Assembly: GCA_004195045.1 (NCBI GenBank)
Contig: SGBC01000001.1
Location: 496,001 to 560,000 of the forward strand
DNA length: 64,000 bases
Reading direction: 5' to 3'
From: Candidatus Acididesulfobacter guangdongensis
Lineage (GTDB): Bacteria > SZUA-79 > Acidulodesulfobacterales > Acidulodesulfobacteraceae
In this document: piece after piece, positions 5,244 through 63,178 of the stretch
Layout: the number at the start of each line of letters is the position of its first letter
Position numbering within the stretch: the stretch's first letter is position 1
The notes under the pieces: generated by a model
Told to the model about the DNA's origin: nothing
Databases searched by the model: none
The model's input: the letters and a program-made list of their open reading frames with translations, nothing else
Made by a program: the position numbers and the translations under genes

Positions 5244-5890
5244 TTACAAGCTTCCTCGAGGAAATCGCTTAAAAATAAACTTATATCATTATATTTTTTT
5301 TCCTTCACCATAACAAAAAGTTCAGATGAAAGAAGTTTGCCGAATATTTCCTGATTTTTTTTCTGCGGCAGATTCTTCTTCTTTACTTCTTTTCTGACTA
5401 AACCCAGAATCTTTACAAAGACCGTATATTCTTCTCCATATATTTTTTCTAAACTTTCTCTGATCTTTCTTGCAAAAAGAGGACTGAGTCCGCCGGTAAA
5501 CACGGCTATTTCAAATTCTCCTCTAGAAACTAAAGCCGGAAGCGTGAATGTACATAGCGCCGGTTTATCGGCAACGTTTATCAAAATATTTTTTTTTATA
5601 CATCTTTCATATAATTTTTCTTCCGTTTTTTTGTTTGATTCGGTAGAAGAAATAGCGCAAAAAACTGCAAAAAAACCATCCTCATCGCCAATTTTATATA
5701 TGCTTTTAATCCATTTAATTTTTGCTTTTTTAGCTGCATCATAAATTTCATTTGTAATCTCAGGGGAAATGACAGTTATTACGGCGCCCTTTTCAATAAG
5801 CCGCTCTATTTTTCTTGATGCGACATTCCCTCCGCCGACAACAAGCACTTTTTTTTCAAAAATATTTAAACCTATAGGATAATATTTCAT
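5240..5890 (-). CDS. Precorrin-2 dehydrogenase/sirohydrochlorin ferrochelatase (Met8/CysG-N type)
   Basis: This 216-residue protein starts with the CysG N-terminal signature: YYPIGLNIFEKKVLVVGGGN followed by VASRKIERLIEKGA, an NAD-binding Rossmann motif. The central LINVADKPALCTFTLPALVSRG region is the family's second conserved block. It oxidises precorrin-2 to sirohydrochlorin and may insert iron. The methylase domain of full CysG is absent here and is supplied by the CobA-HemD fusion at the other end of the operon. It is the promoter-proximal gene of the cluster and overlaps the HemX-like gene by 4 bases, suggesting coupling. Confidence 0.9.
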   Translation of the reverse strand: MKYYPIGLNIFEKKVLVVGGGNVASRKIERLIEKGAVITVISPEITNEIYDAAKKAKIKWIKSIYKIGDEDGFFAVFCAISSTESNKKTEEKLYERCIKKNILINVADKPALCTFTLPALVSRGEFEIAVFTGGLSPLFARKIRESLEKIYGEEYTVFVKILGLVRKEVKKKNLPQKKNQEIFGKLLSSELFVMVKEKKYNDISLFLSDFLEEACK

Positions 5891-5960
5891 AAAAAACTTT
5901 TAATTTTAAGTATTTTGCCTTCAAAAAAAAATTATATAATTACTTAATTAATTTGCAAAC

Positions 5961-6527
5961 TCACTCGCCAAAAATTTCTGCCGAAAATATATAAATATCC
6001 GCATTTTCTTTGTAGGCATCTTCGGGTAATCCCGCTTTTTGAGATACCGCTTCTAAAAATTGCGTTTTATTCATATGGTATTCTGTTGCTACCTGAGGCA
6101 GCAAAACACCGTGATACGGTCCTTTCATTATATATAAGCCGTGCTTTCCTATTATAATTTCATCAAGACTGCCGATTTTTTCTAAAGGACTTAAAACTGA
6201 TATTTCAATACTGATTTTACTTAGCTCGGAGATGGATAGAGGCATGAACCTCGGGTCATTGAATGCGGCTTCGTATGCCATTTTATATATATTTTTGTAA
6301 ATTGGCTCATTTGAAATAAAATTTCCGATACATCCCCTTAACTGTTCGCCGTTAAATTTCAAGGTTACAAAAACTCCGGCTTTTTTCCTCAAATTGTCCG
6401 TCAAAGAATTTAAAAGTTCATCGGAGTTCAGATAGGCGTCTTTTTTTCCGTTTAAAGAATCTTCTATGGATTTCCGGGCAATTCTAATCAGCTGTTTTTT
6501 TTCATTATCGTTTAAATTAAATTCCAT
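5961..6527 (-). CDS. AMMECR1-domain protein (AmmeMemoRadiSam system protein A type)
   Basis: This 188-residue protein consists of a single AMMECR1 domain. The hallmark RGCIGNF is present at about residue 65, followed by YKMAYEAAFNDPRFMPLS and the HGLYIMKGPYHGVLLPQV region. In many prokaryotes this domain occurs with a Memo homologue and the radical SAM enzyme AmrS. An AmrS homologue is in this window at 42907-43950, far from this gene, and no Memo gene is seen. The biochemical role is unknown. It lies 70 bases upstream of the siroheme gene on the same strand, so it could be the first gene of that transcript. Confidence 0.9.
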   Translation of the reverse strand: MEFNLNDNEKKQLIRIARKSIEDSLNGKKDAYLNSDELLNSLTDNLRKKAGVFVTLKFNGEQLRGCIGNFISNEPIYKNIYKMAYEAAFNDPRFMPLSISELSKISIEISVLSPLEKIGSLDEIIIGKHGLYIMKGPYHGVLLPQVATEYHMNKTQFLEAVSQKAGLPEDAYKENADIYIFSAEIFGE

Positions 6528-56558: not shown

Positions 56559-58296
56559 ATGTCCAACTTTAACGAAATTGCTTCTTTTCTGTGGTCAGTG
56601 GCCGACCTTCTTAGGGGGGATTATAAACAGTCTGATTACGGAAAAATAATCCTTCCTTTTACCCTTTTGCGCCGCCTTGATTGTGTGCTTGAACCTACTA
56701 AGCCTGCCGTATTGGCAGAACTTGAAGCAAAAAAAGGCTTAGGCGTTAATTTGGACATATTTCTTGAGAAAAAAGCCGGACGACATTCCTTTTATAATAC
56801 CTCACGCTTTTTAAGCTTATCGGAAGTTATCGCGGACCCCCAATAACGTAAAATCCAATCTAATAAATTATATTTCTGATTTTTCGGGAAACGCCCGTGA
56901 CATTTTCGAGCGTTATGAATTTTTCAACCATATCGAAAAGCTTGACGAGTCTAAATTACTATTCATGGTTGCGCAGAAATTTGCGGCGGCGGACTTACAT
57001 CCATCCGCGGTATCAAATTCCGATATGGGCATGGTATTCGAGGAACTAATACGTCGGTTTGCCGAGTTATCCAACGAAACCGCCGGGGAGCACTATACCC
57101 CCAGAGAAGTCATCCGGCTTATGGCAGATTTGCTTTTAACGTTAGACGACGATGCCTTGTCCGTACCTGGAACAGTAAGGACCATTTACGACCCTGCCGC
57201 CGGCACCGGCGGCATGCTTACCATAGCGGGAGAACGCATTACTGCCCGAAATCCTCAAGCTTCTGTTACCATGTACGGACAGGAACTCAATCCGGAATCC
57301 TACGCTATATGCAAAGCGGATATGCTAATAAAAGGACAGGAAGTATCTAATATCATATTCGGCAACACTCTATCCGACGATGGACTCACAGGAGAAAAGT
57401 TCGACTATATGCTTTCAAATCCTCCGTTCGGGGTTGAATGGAAAAAGGTAGAGAAATCAGTTCGGAAGGAACATGAACAAAAGGGCTATGCGGGACGATT
57501 CGGCCCAGGACTGCCCAGGATTTCCGACGGAAGTCTTCTTTTCCTTATGCATCTTATATCCAAGATGCGGCCTTTGGACAAGGGCGGCTCCAGGATTGGA
57601 ATCGTTTTGAACGGCTCGCCTCTGTTTACCGGAGGAGCAGGTTCAGGCGAATCAGAAATCCGCAAATGGATCATAGAAAACGACTGGCTTGAGGCCATTG
57701 TGGCCCTGCCGACGGACATGTTTTACAATACTGGAATTGCTACTTATATATGGCTTCTTACTAACAAAAAAACTAAGGAACGCAAAGGTAAACTCCAGCT
57801 TATAAACGGCGCAGAATTCTTCCGGAAAATGCGCAAATCGTTAGGTTCCAAGCGCAAGGAGCTTGGCCCCGAAGACATTGAGCGGATAGTGAAACTTCAC
57901 GGCTCATTTGAAGAAAACGAATATTGCAAGATTTTAGACAACGAAGAATTTGGCTACAGGACTATTACCGTGGAACGGCCTTTAAAAGATGAGAATGACA
58001 AGGTTGTTCTAGGCACTAAAGGTCCGCAGAAAGGTAAACCGCTGCCAGATACCGGCCTCAGAGATACCGAAAACGTTCCTCTTAAAGAGGATATTCAGAC
58101 TTACTTCGAGCGCGAGGTTCTTCCTCATGTGCCTGACGCATGGATTGACCATGATAAAACTAAGGTAGGATACGAAATACCTTTTAACCGGTATTTTTAC
58201 AAATATGTCTCGCCAAGACCGCTTGAAGAAATCGACGCCGACTTAAAGGCCGTAAGCGAAGAAATTATGGTCATACTTAAGGAGATAACGGAATGA
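56559..58296 (+). pseudogene. hsdM: Type I restriction-modification methyltransferase subunit, frameshifted
   Basis: The first 95 codons encode a normal HsdM N-terminal domain (NEIASFLWSVADLLRGDYKQ, YGKIILPFTLLRRLDCVLEP) and stop at TAA 56844-56846. The protein continues in the other frame ([20 protein letters not shown]) and runs to 58296. There the SAM motif DPAAGTGGM and catalytic NPPF (SNPPFGVEW) are intact. The break is at a run of five C (56837-56841); removing one C restores ADPNNVKSN. A free ATG at 56965 could give a 443-residue truncated subunit. It overlaps hsdS by 4 bases. Composition is less AT-rich than the core. Confidence 0.88.
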
Positions 58297-59567
58297 AATG
58301 GAAGCCATATCCTAAATACAAAGATTCCGGTGTAGAGTGGATTGGAGAAGTGCCAGAGCATTGGGATGTGAAGATAGTAAAGTACACGACGTACCTGAAA
58401 GGTCGCGTCGGTTGGAAGGGGCTGACATCGGAAGAGTATCAGGAAGACGGTTACGCGTATTTAGTCACTGGGACTGATTTTTTATCGAAGTATATTGATT
58501 GGAACAAGTGTCACTATGTTGAGCAGGCTCGCTACAATGATGACCCTTTTATACAATTACGCAATGGTGATTTGTTGATTACAAAAGATGGAACAATTGG
58601 AAAACTGGCGTTGGTCGAAGATTTAGATGAACCGGCTTGCTTGAACAGTGGGATTTTTCTGGTTCGCCCAAAGAACTCCTATATCACAGAGTATTTTTAC
58701 TGGGTACTTGGTTCAGATGTATTCGCAGTATTTTGCGACTTGTCCAGTCTTGGGTCAACGATACAACACTTGTATCAAAACGTTTTTGAGAATTTCGTGT
58801 TTCCAGTACCGTCTATTCCGGAACAAAAATCCATTGCTGCATTCCTCGACCGCGAAACCGCGAAAATAGATACTCTCATAACTAAGCAGGAACGGCTAAT
58901 TGAGCTTCTTCTGGAAAGGCGTAAGGCTCTTATTTCTCATGCAGTAACAAAAGGGCTTGACCCTAACGCAAAGATGAAAGATTCCGGTGTAGAGTGGATT
59001 GGAGAAATTCCAAAGAAATGGAAGCTCGATAAGATAAAACATAATGTTTTAATTATGGGAAAATCAGGATTGCCCGCTTCCGAAGGCAAAGAAGAAGGTT
59101 TATACCCTTTCTTTACATCAAGCAGGGAACAAAATAAATTTATTGATTTTGCAATTTTTGAAGATGAGTGTCTAATTATGGGAAACGGTGGTTCTGCTAG
59201 TATTCATTATATTAATGGAAAATTTTCTGCTTCAAATGATTGCTTAGTTTTAAAAAGACAAAAAAATATTATCATAAAATTTCTTTATTATTTAATATTT
59301 TCAAATATAAAAACAATTGACGATTTAGGGTTTAGCGGAATTGGACTGAGGCATCTTCAAAAAGATTTTTTTTATAATATGTCGATATATCTTCCGGCTA
59401 CCTCAGAACAACTGGGTATTGTTTCCTATATCGACCGTGAAACCACCAAAATAGATACCCTTATCGAAAAATCACACCGTTCCATAAAACTATTGCGGGA
59501 ACGCCGCAAGGCGCTGATTTCCGCGGCGGTAACCGGTAAAATCGACGTAAGGGAGGCAGGTGCATGA
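58293..59567 (+). CDS. hsdS: Type I restriction-modification specificity subunit
   Basis: This 424-residue protein has two target-recognition domains. Each begins with [10 protein letters not shown]-(I/V)-P and ends with a central or distal helix ([20 protein letters not shown] and [20 protein letters not shown]). A perfect 30-base direct repeat (58320-58349 and 58977-59006) encodes the [10 protein letters not shown] segments. The second domain (about 59020-59400) is noticeably more AT-rich than the first, suggesting separate origins. HsdS selects the bipartite DNA target for HsdM and HsdR. It is coupled by 4-base overlaps on both sides. Confidence 0.95.
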
Positions 59568-62500
59568 GCAATCCACATCATGAAATACATTTAGAATCGG
59601 ATATATGCGAACACCTTGCCGCTAACGGCTGGCTTTATTCCCCCAACGACGATGGATATAACCGGGAACTGGCCCTGTATCCCGAAGATGTTTTTTCGTG
59701 GGTGTCCCAAACTCAGCCGGAACTGTGGGATAAACTTCGACAGACGCATAACGGGGATACTAATAATACCTTTCGTAAACGCCTGGCTCAGGTACTGGAT
59801 AACGAAGGAAGTCTTGCCGTGCTGCGCGGTGGTTTCAAGAATGTTTCAAGCGGTCGGATACAGATGTGCCAGTTTCGTCCGGCGCAGACAATGAACCCCG
59901 AGACTACCTTTAAATACGAACAGGTAAGATGCCGCGTTATGCGCCAGGTGCATTACAGTACCTCAAACGAGAATTCCATAGATCTCGTGTTTTTCGTGAA
60001 CGGCATTCCGGTCGCAACGGCAGAGTTGAAGACTGATTTCACGCAGTCCGTTCATGAAGCAATCCACCAATACAAATACGACCGTATGCCTAAAGACCCG
60101 AATACTAAGAGGGAAGAACCGCTTCTTGCGTTTAAGCGAAGGACGCTGGTCCATTTTGCGGCGTCTTCCGACGAGGTTTATATGACGACTATGCTTAACG
60201 GCAAGGATACGAAATTTCTTCCATTTAACTTAGGCGATAACGGAGGCGCCGGTAATCCGGCAAACCCAAACGGCTACCGCACGTCCTACCTATGGGAGCG
60301 AATCTGGCAAAAGGACGCCTGGCTTGATATTTTAGGCAGATTCGTCCATCTTGGGCGGGAGGATAAAAAGGACGCCTCAGGCAAGAAGTCGTCTTTAGAG
60401 AAATTAATCTTTCCGCGCTTTCACCAGTGGGACGTCGTAACGCGACTTATTGCCGCCGCAAGAGAGGAAAAAGCGGGAGCGAAATATCTTGTGCAGCATT
60501 CTGCCGGTTCCGGCAAGACCAACTCCATTTCATGGCTTTCCCATCAGCTTTCGAGTCTTCATTCATTAGCAGACGGAAAAGACGAGCGCGTTTTTCATTC
60601 GGTGATAGTTATTACGGACAGAAATATATTAGACAGCCAGCTGCAGGACGCTATATACCAGTTTGAACATAAAGAAGGAGTAGTATGCCGGATTAAAGAA
60701 GGGGTAAAATCAGCCCAGCTTGCAAAAGCCTTGAAAGACGGCATACCGATAATCGTAGTTACTATACAGACTTTCCATTTCGTTTTGGAGGCAATTCGAA
60801 AAGAAACGTCTCTTAAAGGAAGAAAGTTCGCAGTCATAGCTGATGAAGCCCATTCTTCCCAGGCAGGTTCTATGGCAAAAGCATTAAAACAGGTTTTAAC
60901 GGCGGAGCAGATAGAAGAAGGTGAAGAAATATCGGCGGACGACCTTCTTGCCGCCGAAATGGCGGCAAGGCCTCAATCTTCCAACGTCAGCTACTTTGCT
61001 TTTACCGCCACGCCCAAACACAAAACGATGGAGCTATTCGGAAGGCGTCCAGACCCCAACCTTCCTTCGTCGGAAACCAATAAGCCGGATGCCTTTCACA
61101 TTTATTCCATGAGGCAGGCTATAGAGGAGGGTTTTATTCTTGACGTATTAAAAAACTACACCGCGTACAAATTAGCATTTAAACTTGCACATAACGGGCA
61201 GGATTACGACGAAGAGACATTGGACGAGAGCAAGGCCATGAAGTCGCTAATGAGGTGGGTCCGCCTCCATCCATATAACATTTCTCAAAAGGTGCAGATT
61301 ATAGTAGAGCATTTTCGTGCAAACGTCGAATGGCGGCTTAACGGTGAAGCCAAGGCTATGGTAGTAACCTCTTCGCGCAAGGAAGCGGTTCGCTATAAGC
61401 TGGCTATAGATAAATACATACGCGATAAAGGCTACGAAATCGGAACTCTCGTTGCTTTTTCAGGCGAAGTAGCGGATCAGGGAATCAGTCCGGATTCGTT
61501 TTCGGAGTTTAATATGAACCCAGGATTGCGCGAACGGGATTTGCGTGATGCTTTCGATACGGACGAGTTTTCCATACTCCTGGTCGCAAACAAGTACCAG
61601 ACGGGTTTCGACCAGCCCAAACTTACCGCAATGTACGTCGATAAAAAACTTGCCGGCATAAATGCCGTGCAGACCTTATCTCGGCTTGACAGGACGTTCC
61701 CCGGCAAAGACCAGACGTTTATCCTGGATTTCGTGAATGATCCTGAAGAGATAAGAATATCGTTCCTGCCTTATTACGACAAAGCTGAGCTTGCTGGCGT
61801 TTCAGATCCTAACATCATCCACGACATGCAGGCAAAGCTGGATTCCCATAGGATATATACTCAATCCGAGATAGACGGCTTCGTCGCCGCATATTACAAA
61901 GAAAGCCAAAAAGATATGCAGGCGCGCATCGCCCCTGCGGTTGACCGGTTTCGTAATATTTGGAAAGCAGCTTTGGAATCGAAAGACAAAAAGGGCCTCG
62001 ACGCCTTAGAAATTTTTAGAAAAGATTTAAGGGCATTTATAAGCGCCTACGACTTCCTATCCCAGATAATCGATTACAGAGATACCGACCTTGAAAAGCG
62101 GTCTATTTTTTACAAACACCTGCTGCCGCTTATTAAAGAGGAAAATCTTAACGAACCTATAGATTTATCTTCCGTTAAGTTAACGCATTACAACTTGATA
62201 GACAAAGGTAAGCGCGATATCAAGCTTGACGGGACTAACGACGACGGTAAGCTCAAACCCCTTACAGGCATAGGAACTGCCAAGCCCCATGATCCGGAAC
62301 AGGCATTTCTGTCTGAGATAATCGTCAGAATAAATGATTTATTTGAAGGTGATTTGTCCGATGCAGATAAATTATCCTACGCTCAGCATATAAGAGGCAA
62401 AATGATGGAAAACGAAATACTCTCATTGCAGGCCGAGGCCAACACTAAGGAACAATTTGCGTCCAGCCCTGATTTTAAAGATGCAATGAATAGCGCTGTA

Positions 62501-63178
62501 ACCGACGGTTTGGAAAATTATAACGAAATGGCCAAACAGATTCTAAATAATGAATACAAAAGGGAGGAACTGGCGAATATATTATTGGATATGGTTTATA
62601 TGGGGTTTGCTGAAAAACGGATGAAAATAAATGAAAGGAGGGATGAATGTAAGTTAGAAAAATCTATTATGCAAACATCGAATGGCCATTCTTTAAAAAT
62701 AGTTTCAGACATCGATATTTCTGAATCCGAAAAATTCGTCTCTTTTCTTCCTATATATTCCTTAGAAGCTGCTGCCACGGCGTTTGGAAGGGAAGAATAT
62801 GTAGAAAATTCGGGTTGGATGATTGCTACGGTTGCGGGCAGGAAACTCAATAAAGATATGTTTATAGCCAAAGTGGTCGGCAAATCTATGGAGCCTACTA
62901 TACCCGACGGCAGTTATTGCATATTTAGGTTAGACAAGGGAGGTTCCCGAAATGAAACCGTCGTTCTGGTAGAATCAAAACAAGTTGCCGACAGAGACAC
63001 AAACCAGAAATTTACGGTAAAACGTTATCATAGCGAGAAAGAATATTTCGAGGACGGAACATGGCGGCATAAACGGATTACCTTATCCCCTGACAACAAG
63101 GAATTTGAACCGATAATATTAGAAAACATGCAGGAAACTGATTTCAGGGTTGTCGCCGAGTTTATAGGCGTTATATAA
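59564..63178 (+). CDS. hsdR: Type I restriction subunit HsdR fused to a C-terminal S24 (LexA/UmuD-like) peptidase domain
   Basis: This protein is 1204 residues. The N-terminal nuclease shows Asp140, then Glu154 and Lys156 in VATAELKTDF. The motor has Walker A SAGSGKTNS (~312), DEAH (IADEAHSS, ~424) and TATP (~480), followed by RecA-like domain 2 and the helical C-terminal region to ~1030. Residues ~1036-1204 are unlike HsdR and match an S24 peptidase: MFIAKVVGKSMEPTIPDGSY with putative nucleophile Ser1108, and general base Lys1153 in FTVKRY. No helix-turn-helix is visible. The R part translocates and cleaves unmodified DNA. The S24 part could respond to RecA filaments, which is inference. Confidence 0.9.
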   Translation: MSNPHHEIHLESDICEHLAANGWLYSPNDDGYNRELALYPEDVFSWVSQTQPELWDKLRQTHNGDTNNTFRKRLAQVLDNEGSLAVLRGGFKNVSSGRIQMCQFRPAQTMNPETTFKYEQVRCRVMRQVHYSTSNENSIDLVFFVNGIPVATAELKTDFTQSVHEAIHQYKYDRMPKDPNTKREEPLLAFKRRTLVHFAASSDEVYMTTMLNGKDTKFLPFNLGDNGGAGNPANPNGYRTSYLWERIWQKDAWLDILGRFVHLGREDKKDASGKKSSLEKLIFPRFHQWDVVTRLIAAAREEKAGAKYLVQHSAGSGKTNSISWLSHQLSSLHSLADGKDERVFHSVIVITDRNILDSQLQDAIYQFEHKEGVVCRIKEGVKSAQLAKALKDGIPIIVVTIQTFHFVLEAIRKETSLKGRKFAVIADEAHSSQAGSMAKALKQVLTAEQIEEGEEISADDLLAAEMAARPQSSNVSYFAFTATPKHKTMELFGRRPDPNLPSSETNKPDAFHIYSMRQAIEEGFILDVLKNYTAYKLAFKLAHNGQDYDEETLDESKAMKSLMRWVRLHPYNISQKVQIIVEHFRANVEWRLNGEAKAMVVTSSRKEAVRYKLAIDKYIRDKGYEIGTLVAFSGEVADQGISPDSFSEFNMNPGLRERDLRDAFDTDEFSILLVANKYQTGFDQPKLTAMYVDKKLAGINAVQTLSRLDRTFPGKDQTFILDFVNDPEEIRISFLPYYDKAELAGVSDPNIIHDMQAKLDSHRIYTQSEIDGFVAAYYKESQKDMQARIAPAVDRFRNIWKAALESKDKKGLDALEIFRKDLRAFISAYDFLSQIIDYRDTDLEKRSIFYKHLLPLIKEENLNEPIDLSSVKLTHYNLIDKGKRDIKLDGTNDDGKLKPLTGIGTAKPHDPEQAFLSEIIVRINDLFEGDLSDADKLSYAQHIRGKMMENEILSLQAEANTKEQFASSPDFKDAMNSAVTDGLENYNEMAKQILNNEYKREELANILLDMVYMGFAEKRMKINERRDECKLEKSIMQTSNGHSLKIVSDIDISESEKFVSFLPIYSLEAAATAFGREEYVENSGWMIATVAGRKLNKDMFIAKVVGKSMEPTIPDGSYCIFRLDKGGSRNETVVLVESKQVADRDTNQKFTVKRYHSEKEYFEDGTWRHKRITLSPDNKEFEPIILENMQETDFRVVAEFIGVI

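Follow-up and report, generated by a model that had tools for sequence, protein, structure and literature searches.

Introduction

In LexA, UmuD and the lambda CI repressor the bond that is cut lies 34-37 residues before the catalytic Ser. UmuD is cleaved after Cys24 (PMC5342242) and has its active Ser at position 60, i.e. at a spacing of 35. Upon cleavage LexA and the regulator IrvR expose a C-terminal degron (C-degron) for ClpXP (PMC5742171, PMC7101444), and ClpXP also destroys the HsdR subunit of EcoKI during restriction alleviation (PMC4231737, PMC11109961). The signal that marks HsdR for ClpXP is unknown, and the authors asked why no alleviation had been seen in other classes of restriction enzymes (PMC4231737). 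The means by which bacteria keep restriction and other DNA-attacking defences off their own damaged or under-methylated chromosome are known for a few Type I enzymes of E. coli only. This report concerns an S24 (LexA/UmuD-like) module at the C-terminus of a Type I HsdR protein encoded in a 64,000-nucleotide stretch of Candidatus Acididesulfobacter guangdongensis (contig SGBC01000001.1, positions 496,001 to 560,000; the window). An earlier note on this DNA had recognised the S24 domain and proposed that HsdR cuts itself as a switch; the main finding, which that reading missed, is that unrelated restriction and Druantia enzymes have this module in common.

Identity, extent and fold of the module

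The hsdR gene (59564-63178, forward strand) comprises 1204 uninterrupted codons, and the tail is continuous with the restriction motor in one frame, as had been claimed. Pfam predicts HSDR_N (residues 17-214), SWI2_SNF2 (SWI2_SNF2/ResIII, 287-543), a T1R_D3-like region (665-723) and Peptidase_S24 (1088-1198); the last of these matches with E 7.4e-9 for the full HsdR and E 1.2e-10 for the tail alone. The profile check that the earlier note had proposed was passed, the isolated tail scoring 41.6 bits against PF00717 with a curated cut-off of 23.3 bits. Against the LexA model TIGR00498 the tail scored 22.9 bits (cut-off 110.95), the DNA-binding domain not being present, and against the UmuD model NF007621 22.1 bits (cut-off 110); judged by these profiles, the tail is an S24 domain, yet neither LexA nor UmuD.

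A single-sequence phmmer search of the PDB with the tail gave no match and a profile search gave weak LexA matches, so that a comparison of structures was required. The AlphaFold (AF2) model of the tail was confident (predicted local distance difference test, pLDDT, 92.5); its best Foldseek matches were LexA (E 6e-6 to 5e-4), and the 30 PDB matches at E<=0.001 were LexA or lambda repressor fragments. The tail is predicted from this model to have a LexA-type fold, and the domain assignment of the earlier note is borne out by Pfam, by the confident model and by the LexA-type matches alike.

DNA similarity to the tails of unrelated enzymes sets in at 62692-62714 and runs up to the stop codon; the module starts at about residue 1044-1051 of HsdR. 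The interval 1036-1204 given earlier thus holds the S24 module but begins too early, its first ~10 residues being linker.

Enzymes that carry the module

A scan of 84,980 species genomes with two short patterns alone gave 309 relatives, of which 80 were kept; these are found in Omnitrophota, Elusimicrobiota, Acidobacteriota, Bacteroidota, Planctomycetota, Pseudomonadota, Spirochaetota, Myxococcota and others. A profile search found the module in 35 of 237 genomes of Omnitrophota, 26 of 297 of Acidobacteriota, 11 of 199 of Planctomycetota, 12 of 297 of Bacteroidota and five of 399 of Pseudomonadota (phylum names as in the sequence records of the centre loci; a few centre genomes may differ in GTDB).

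When the genomes related to that of the window were searched with the tail alone, copies were found at the ends of long and very different proteins, which Pfam identified as Type ISP enzymes, ResIII (Type III-like) proteins, HindI-type HsdR and a large MZB-containing helicase. By host clustering and family scans, the hosts comprise HsdR, several subtypes of Type III Res (some with an endonuclease or TnsA-like domain), Type ISP/IIG enzymes, Schlafen-g3 helicases and a DruE-like class, the best PADLOC match of which is Druantia DruE (E 3.5e-106). The 145 unique near-full copies are distributed over HsdR (42), Schlafen-g3 helicases (27), Type ISP/IIG (17), DruE-like proteins (15), ResIII-RE (13), other Res (14) and short or unassigned hosts (17). 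As to the homologue survey suggested earlier, more than 40 HsdR copies in other genomes end in the same domain, in frame. The hosts are otherwise ordinary members of their families, and nearly all are DNA-attacking defence enzymes. In full-length frames the module ends within about 20 residues of the C-terminus, with one copy at 65 residues.

The tail was found in none of 50,697 phage records and in one of 72,556 plasmid records. A Schlafen-g3 helicase encoded on a Halomonas plasmid has a short S24 frame beside it. A single-sequence scan of viral contigs with the tail gave no match, and an alignment scan of the same kind of contigs gave two true relatives (L123 and L124). The other loci from this alignment scan had only weak scores and resemble ordinary short S24 repressors of phage or helix-turn-helix type. 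Artefacts of sequence error and of short open reading frames were set aside: L102 holds a frameshifted HsdR, and several short matches are located at contig edges.

Several unusual arrangements were also observed. In one EcoEI-type HsdR (L251:16-2784) the insertion point of the module is ahead of HSDR_N, close to the N-terminus (about residues 70-230). A helix-turn-helix repressor (L098:4993-5796) carries the same S24 module, and may be the origin of the enzyme-borne cassette or a sibling of it. L249 and L250 (L250:4321-5115, reverse strand) encode stand-alone proteins of 265-272 amino acids with the module behind ~110 residues that have no Pfam match, and an Eco57I-type methylase gene carries the module in L254.

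Catalytic dyad and predicted cleavage site

Ser1108 and Lys1153 of the window HsdR lie exactly where the earlier note had placed them. Both residues are invariant in the 145 unique near-full copies, including the 62 copies that were found with the whole-domain profile only, i.e. in a search unanchored on the dyad (Ser 62/62, Lys 62/62). Their spacing of 45 residues is the norm of the family (135 of 144 copies).

The window HsdR has A1071-T1072 (EAAA|T) at the position of the LexA Ala-Gly bond, 36 residues before Ser1108. Compared with the usual small-small bond (Ala/Cys-Gly, ~34-37 residues before Ser), the position and the Ala before the bond (P1) fit, and the residue after it (P1') is Thr where Gly is usual. 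Of the unique copies, 144 include the site; among these, P1 is Ala in 138 and Cys in six, P1' is Gly in 88, Thr in 40 and Ser in 16, followed by x-Phe, and the median distance from P1' to Ser is 35 residues. The bond types in the 62 profile-only copies are Ala-Gly (40), Ala-Thr (20), Ala-Ser (1) and Cys-Gly (1). An alignment (hhalign) with the LexA-like protein of the window genome itself covered the catalytic core and left the cleavage segment unaligned, hence the assignment of the site rests on spacing and conservation.

With the conserved dyad, a small-small bond at LexA/UmuD spacing and a LexA fold, a self-cleavage device of the S24 type on HsdR is well supported, and by analogy with LexA, UmuD and IrvR self-cleavage between A1071 and T1072 is likely. 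Of the switch proposed in the earlier note, the S24 device thus stands, whereas the location of the cut does not: AFG and VAG had been named as candidates, and the homologous position is A1071-T1072.

Movement of the module between hosts

A tree of the tails (a quick tree with many weak branches) has 34 changes of host class among eight classes, for which seven would suffice; on its starred branches alone, at least 10 changes are forced for HsdR. In two genomes of the window's family, a 510-bp block with ~92% identity is common to an HsdR gene and a Type ISP gene; it sets in abruptly some 169 codons ahead of the stop codon and extends up to it, and the flanks on both sides are unrelated. Within this family, the tails of Type III-like Res proteins are ~78% identical to the window tail, and no relatives of the window HsdR above E 1e-15 were found in the 29 other genomes of that family. 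On this evidence from sequence comparison, the tail is a transferable S24 module that has moved between unrelated hosts, which comprise at least eight kinds of restriction and anti-phage enzymes in many phyla. As a separate observation, an orphan 3' half of another tail copy (5795-6106) comes after a Schlafen-g3 helicase with the tail (L257:3143-6106); it may be a trace left by an exchange of modules.

Tails from the same lineage on different enzymes have a median identity of 51.6%, compared with 42.9% for tails from other lineages on the same enzyme class. This pattern would suit a module adapted to a partner in the host cell, such as RecA, rather than to the enzyme.

Proposed mechanism and alternatives

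In the mechanism that we propose, the enzyme would be whole in the unstressed cell. Upon damage to host DNA, RecA filaments, the presumed trigger, would keep the module in a form that can be cleaved, and the Ser1108/Lys1153 pair would cut the chain of the enzyme itself at the Ala1071-Thr1072 bond. The restriction motor would be released with a new C-terminus, ...LEAAA, resembling the buried C-degron that LexA exposes for ClpXP, and ClpXP would presumably clear the enzyme, which would thus be inactivated and removed; with one cassette on many defence enzymes, all would answer the same signal. In 104 of 144 copies the predicted new C-terminus reads -AAA, -VAA or -IAA (-GAA in one of them), and in 34 it reads -AVA or -AIA. 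The window genome encodes RecA, and a LexA-like S24 protein adjoins a DinB-like gene. This LexA-like protein (L001:1027-1866) has a diverged N-terminus with no match to the LexA DNA-binding family.

A damage-triggered off-switch is favoured because LexA and IrvR expose a degron, because the HsdR of EcoKI is removed, and because RecA and a LexA-like protein are encoded in the genome. Its parts differ in strength: given self-cleavage at the predicted bond, a RecA trigger is moderately probable, and the off rather than the on direction is fairly probable. A link of the HsdR tail to RecA/SOS or to restriction alleviation is the most plausible reading. As the likeliest explanation, though still a tentative one, we propose that the whole is a mobile self-cleavage cassette by which defence enzymes are switched off when the DNA of the host is damaged, as hard-wired restriction alleviation, and that RecA filaments are probably the trigger; that an SOS-sensing mobile cassette in Types I, III and ISP/IIG, Druantia and Schlafen helicases is a common post-translational off-switch of immunity is a similarly tentative proposal.

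Several points weigh against this proposal. At P1' the window HsdR has Thr, and 39% of the copies have Thr or Ser, where characterised S24 self-cleavers use Gly. The AlphaFold model shows LEAAATA as a short helix, and the predicted resting form is not obviously cleavable, so that an activating conformational change would be needed, as for LexA. Thirty-three copies would end in -AVA and six in -AAC, which are a poorer fit to a C-degron, and cleavage of the N-terminal module of L251 would leave no C-degron on the motor. The lineage effect among the tails could also reflect local recombination or the choice of recombination partners. Finally, the alleviation of EcoKI is independent of SOS (PMC11109961).

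An off-switch by self-cleavage might also respond to something other than RecA, such as the concentration or oligomeric state of the enzyme, or a phage product acting as a mimic or blocker of LexA control. IrvR of S. mutans, which is LexA-like, cleaves without RecA, although all other characterised members need it (PMC7101444); seven of 25 genomes that carry the module have no detected LexA DNA-binding domain, and against this RecA is present in the window genome. We consider a trigger of this kind rather unlikely.

That the tail keeps the enzyme inactive until an infection or damage signal (RecA on phage or recessed DNA) leads to an activating cleavage is unlikely. The cleavage of LexA, CI and UmuD in each case releases an activity, and Druantia and Schlafen-type hosts, being without an evident methyl mark for self and non-self, might need activation. 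However, restriction enzymes with cognate methylases need no activation, tailless Type I, III and ISP relatives are active, and a RecA trigger would activate the nuclease while the host genome is under repair and under-methylated.

It is more doubtful still that the S24 fold is kept as a docking or dimerisation module, for binding RecA filaments or pairing enzymes, with an incidental peptidase activity. S24 domains do dimerise and bind RecA, as in LexA and UmuD, and the scissile segment is helical in the model; yet docking or dimerisation alone would not preserve a Ser-Lys dyad and a small-small bond over 145 copies in many phyla. A separate gene fused to hsdR by sequence error, for which the one-base frameshift in the neighbouring hsdM might speak since the assembly may hold indels, is ruled out for practical purposes by the in-frame HsdR-S24 fusions at more than 40 other loci in other genomes and by the same tail on other enzymes at more than 80.

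Novelty and significance

No earlier description of an S24 module on restriction or antiphage enzymes was found in open-access full text, most subscription papers being outside the scope of the search, and a recent review of restriction biology makes no mention of S24, LexA or UmuD; Pfam architecture listings may already show such S24 fusions. If the proposed off-switch is true, a cassette on Type I, III, ISP and IIG enzymes and on Druantia would be a general answer to the missing alleviation, a single Ser-to-Ala exchange would be expected to disable the switch on all of the host enzymes, and the module would be a ready-made part for building damage-controlled enzymes.

The hsdR gene and its operon

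The window protein has the HSDR_N nuclease domain and the superfamily 2 (SF2) motor with its motifs by which a Type I HsdR is recognised, and is ~43% identical to HsdR elsewhere over ~1025 amino acids; against NCBIfam TIGR00348 it scored 160 bits (cut-off 284.55), i.e. it is related but outside that subfamily model. The hsdM and hsdS genes lie directly upstream of hsdR, which is the layout of a Type I operon, though hsdM is frameshifted, with HsdM_N predicted in one frame and N6_Mtase in the next. The frameshift may reflect a true pseudogene, a short slippery tract or an indel of the assembly; the window system is probably inactive if the frameshift is real, and intact if it is a sequencing indel. 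The family-level result is independent of the state of hsdM in the window copy. The features are summarized in Table 1.

Table 1. Features of the Type I restriction operon and of the S24 module of HsdR, in positions of the window
Feature	Coordinates	Strand	Basis
hsdM, split by a one-base frameshift at a five-C run near 56838-56842	56559..58296	+	Open reading frames, Pfam
hsdS, two target-recognition domains, overlapping the hsdR start	58293..59567	+	Methylase_S E 4.2e-26, two stretches
hsdR, Type I restriction motor/nuclease subunit with C-terminal S24 module, 1204 amino acids	59564..63178	+	One open reading frame; Pfam; PADLOC REase_I E 3.8e-30
HSDR_N nuclease domain, residues 17-214	59612..60205	+	Pfam; D-...-ELK residues kept (IDLVFF 139, AELK 153)
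SF2 motor, residues 287-723	60422..61732	+	GSGKT 315, DEAH 427, TATPK 481, TGFDQP 680, SRLDRT 706
Mobile S24 module, about residues 1044-1204	62692..63178, to stop codon	+	DNA similarity, model, structure matches
Predicted scissile bond Ala1071|Thr1072 in YSLEAAATAF	62774..62779	+	P1/P1' conservation, spacing
Catalytic Ser1108 (GKSMEP)	62885..62887	+	Kept in 145/145 copies
Catalytic Lys1153 (FTVKRY)	63020..63022	+	Kept in 145/145 copies

Comparison with known systems

The module resembles LexA, UmuD and phage CI in its fold, in the Ser-Lys dyad within GxSM...K, and in the predicted small-small bond ~35 residues before Ser. It differs from them in that it is without a DNA-binding or polymerase-partner part and is attached to restriction and defence enzymes, in that Thr or Ser is common at P1', in its own conserved motifs (WRH, SEK, DPET), and in the separation of Ser and Lys, which is 45 residues in the module and 37 in LexA and UmuD. 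The LexA-like regulators IrvR and HdiR, in which autocleavage occurs beside a buried ClpXP C-degron, are the template for the proposed off-switch (PMC5742171, PMC7101444), but are themselves helix-turn-helix repressors, unlike the enzyme-borne module. In the published descriptions found of Type I HsdR, Type III Res, Type ISP (LlaBIII-like), Druantia DruE and Schlafen-g3 proteins, an S24 tail does not appear. The alleviation of EcoKI by ClpXP differs from the proposal in that its HsdR has no S24 tail, alleviation occurs without SOS, and a degron on HsdR was not found (PMC4231737, PMC11109961); it is like the proposal in that HsdR is removed post-translationally when the host DNA is unmodified or damaged.
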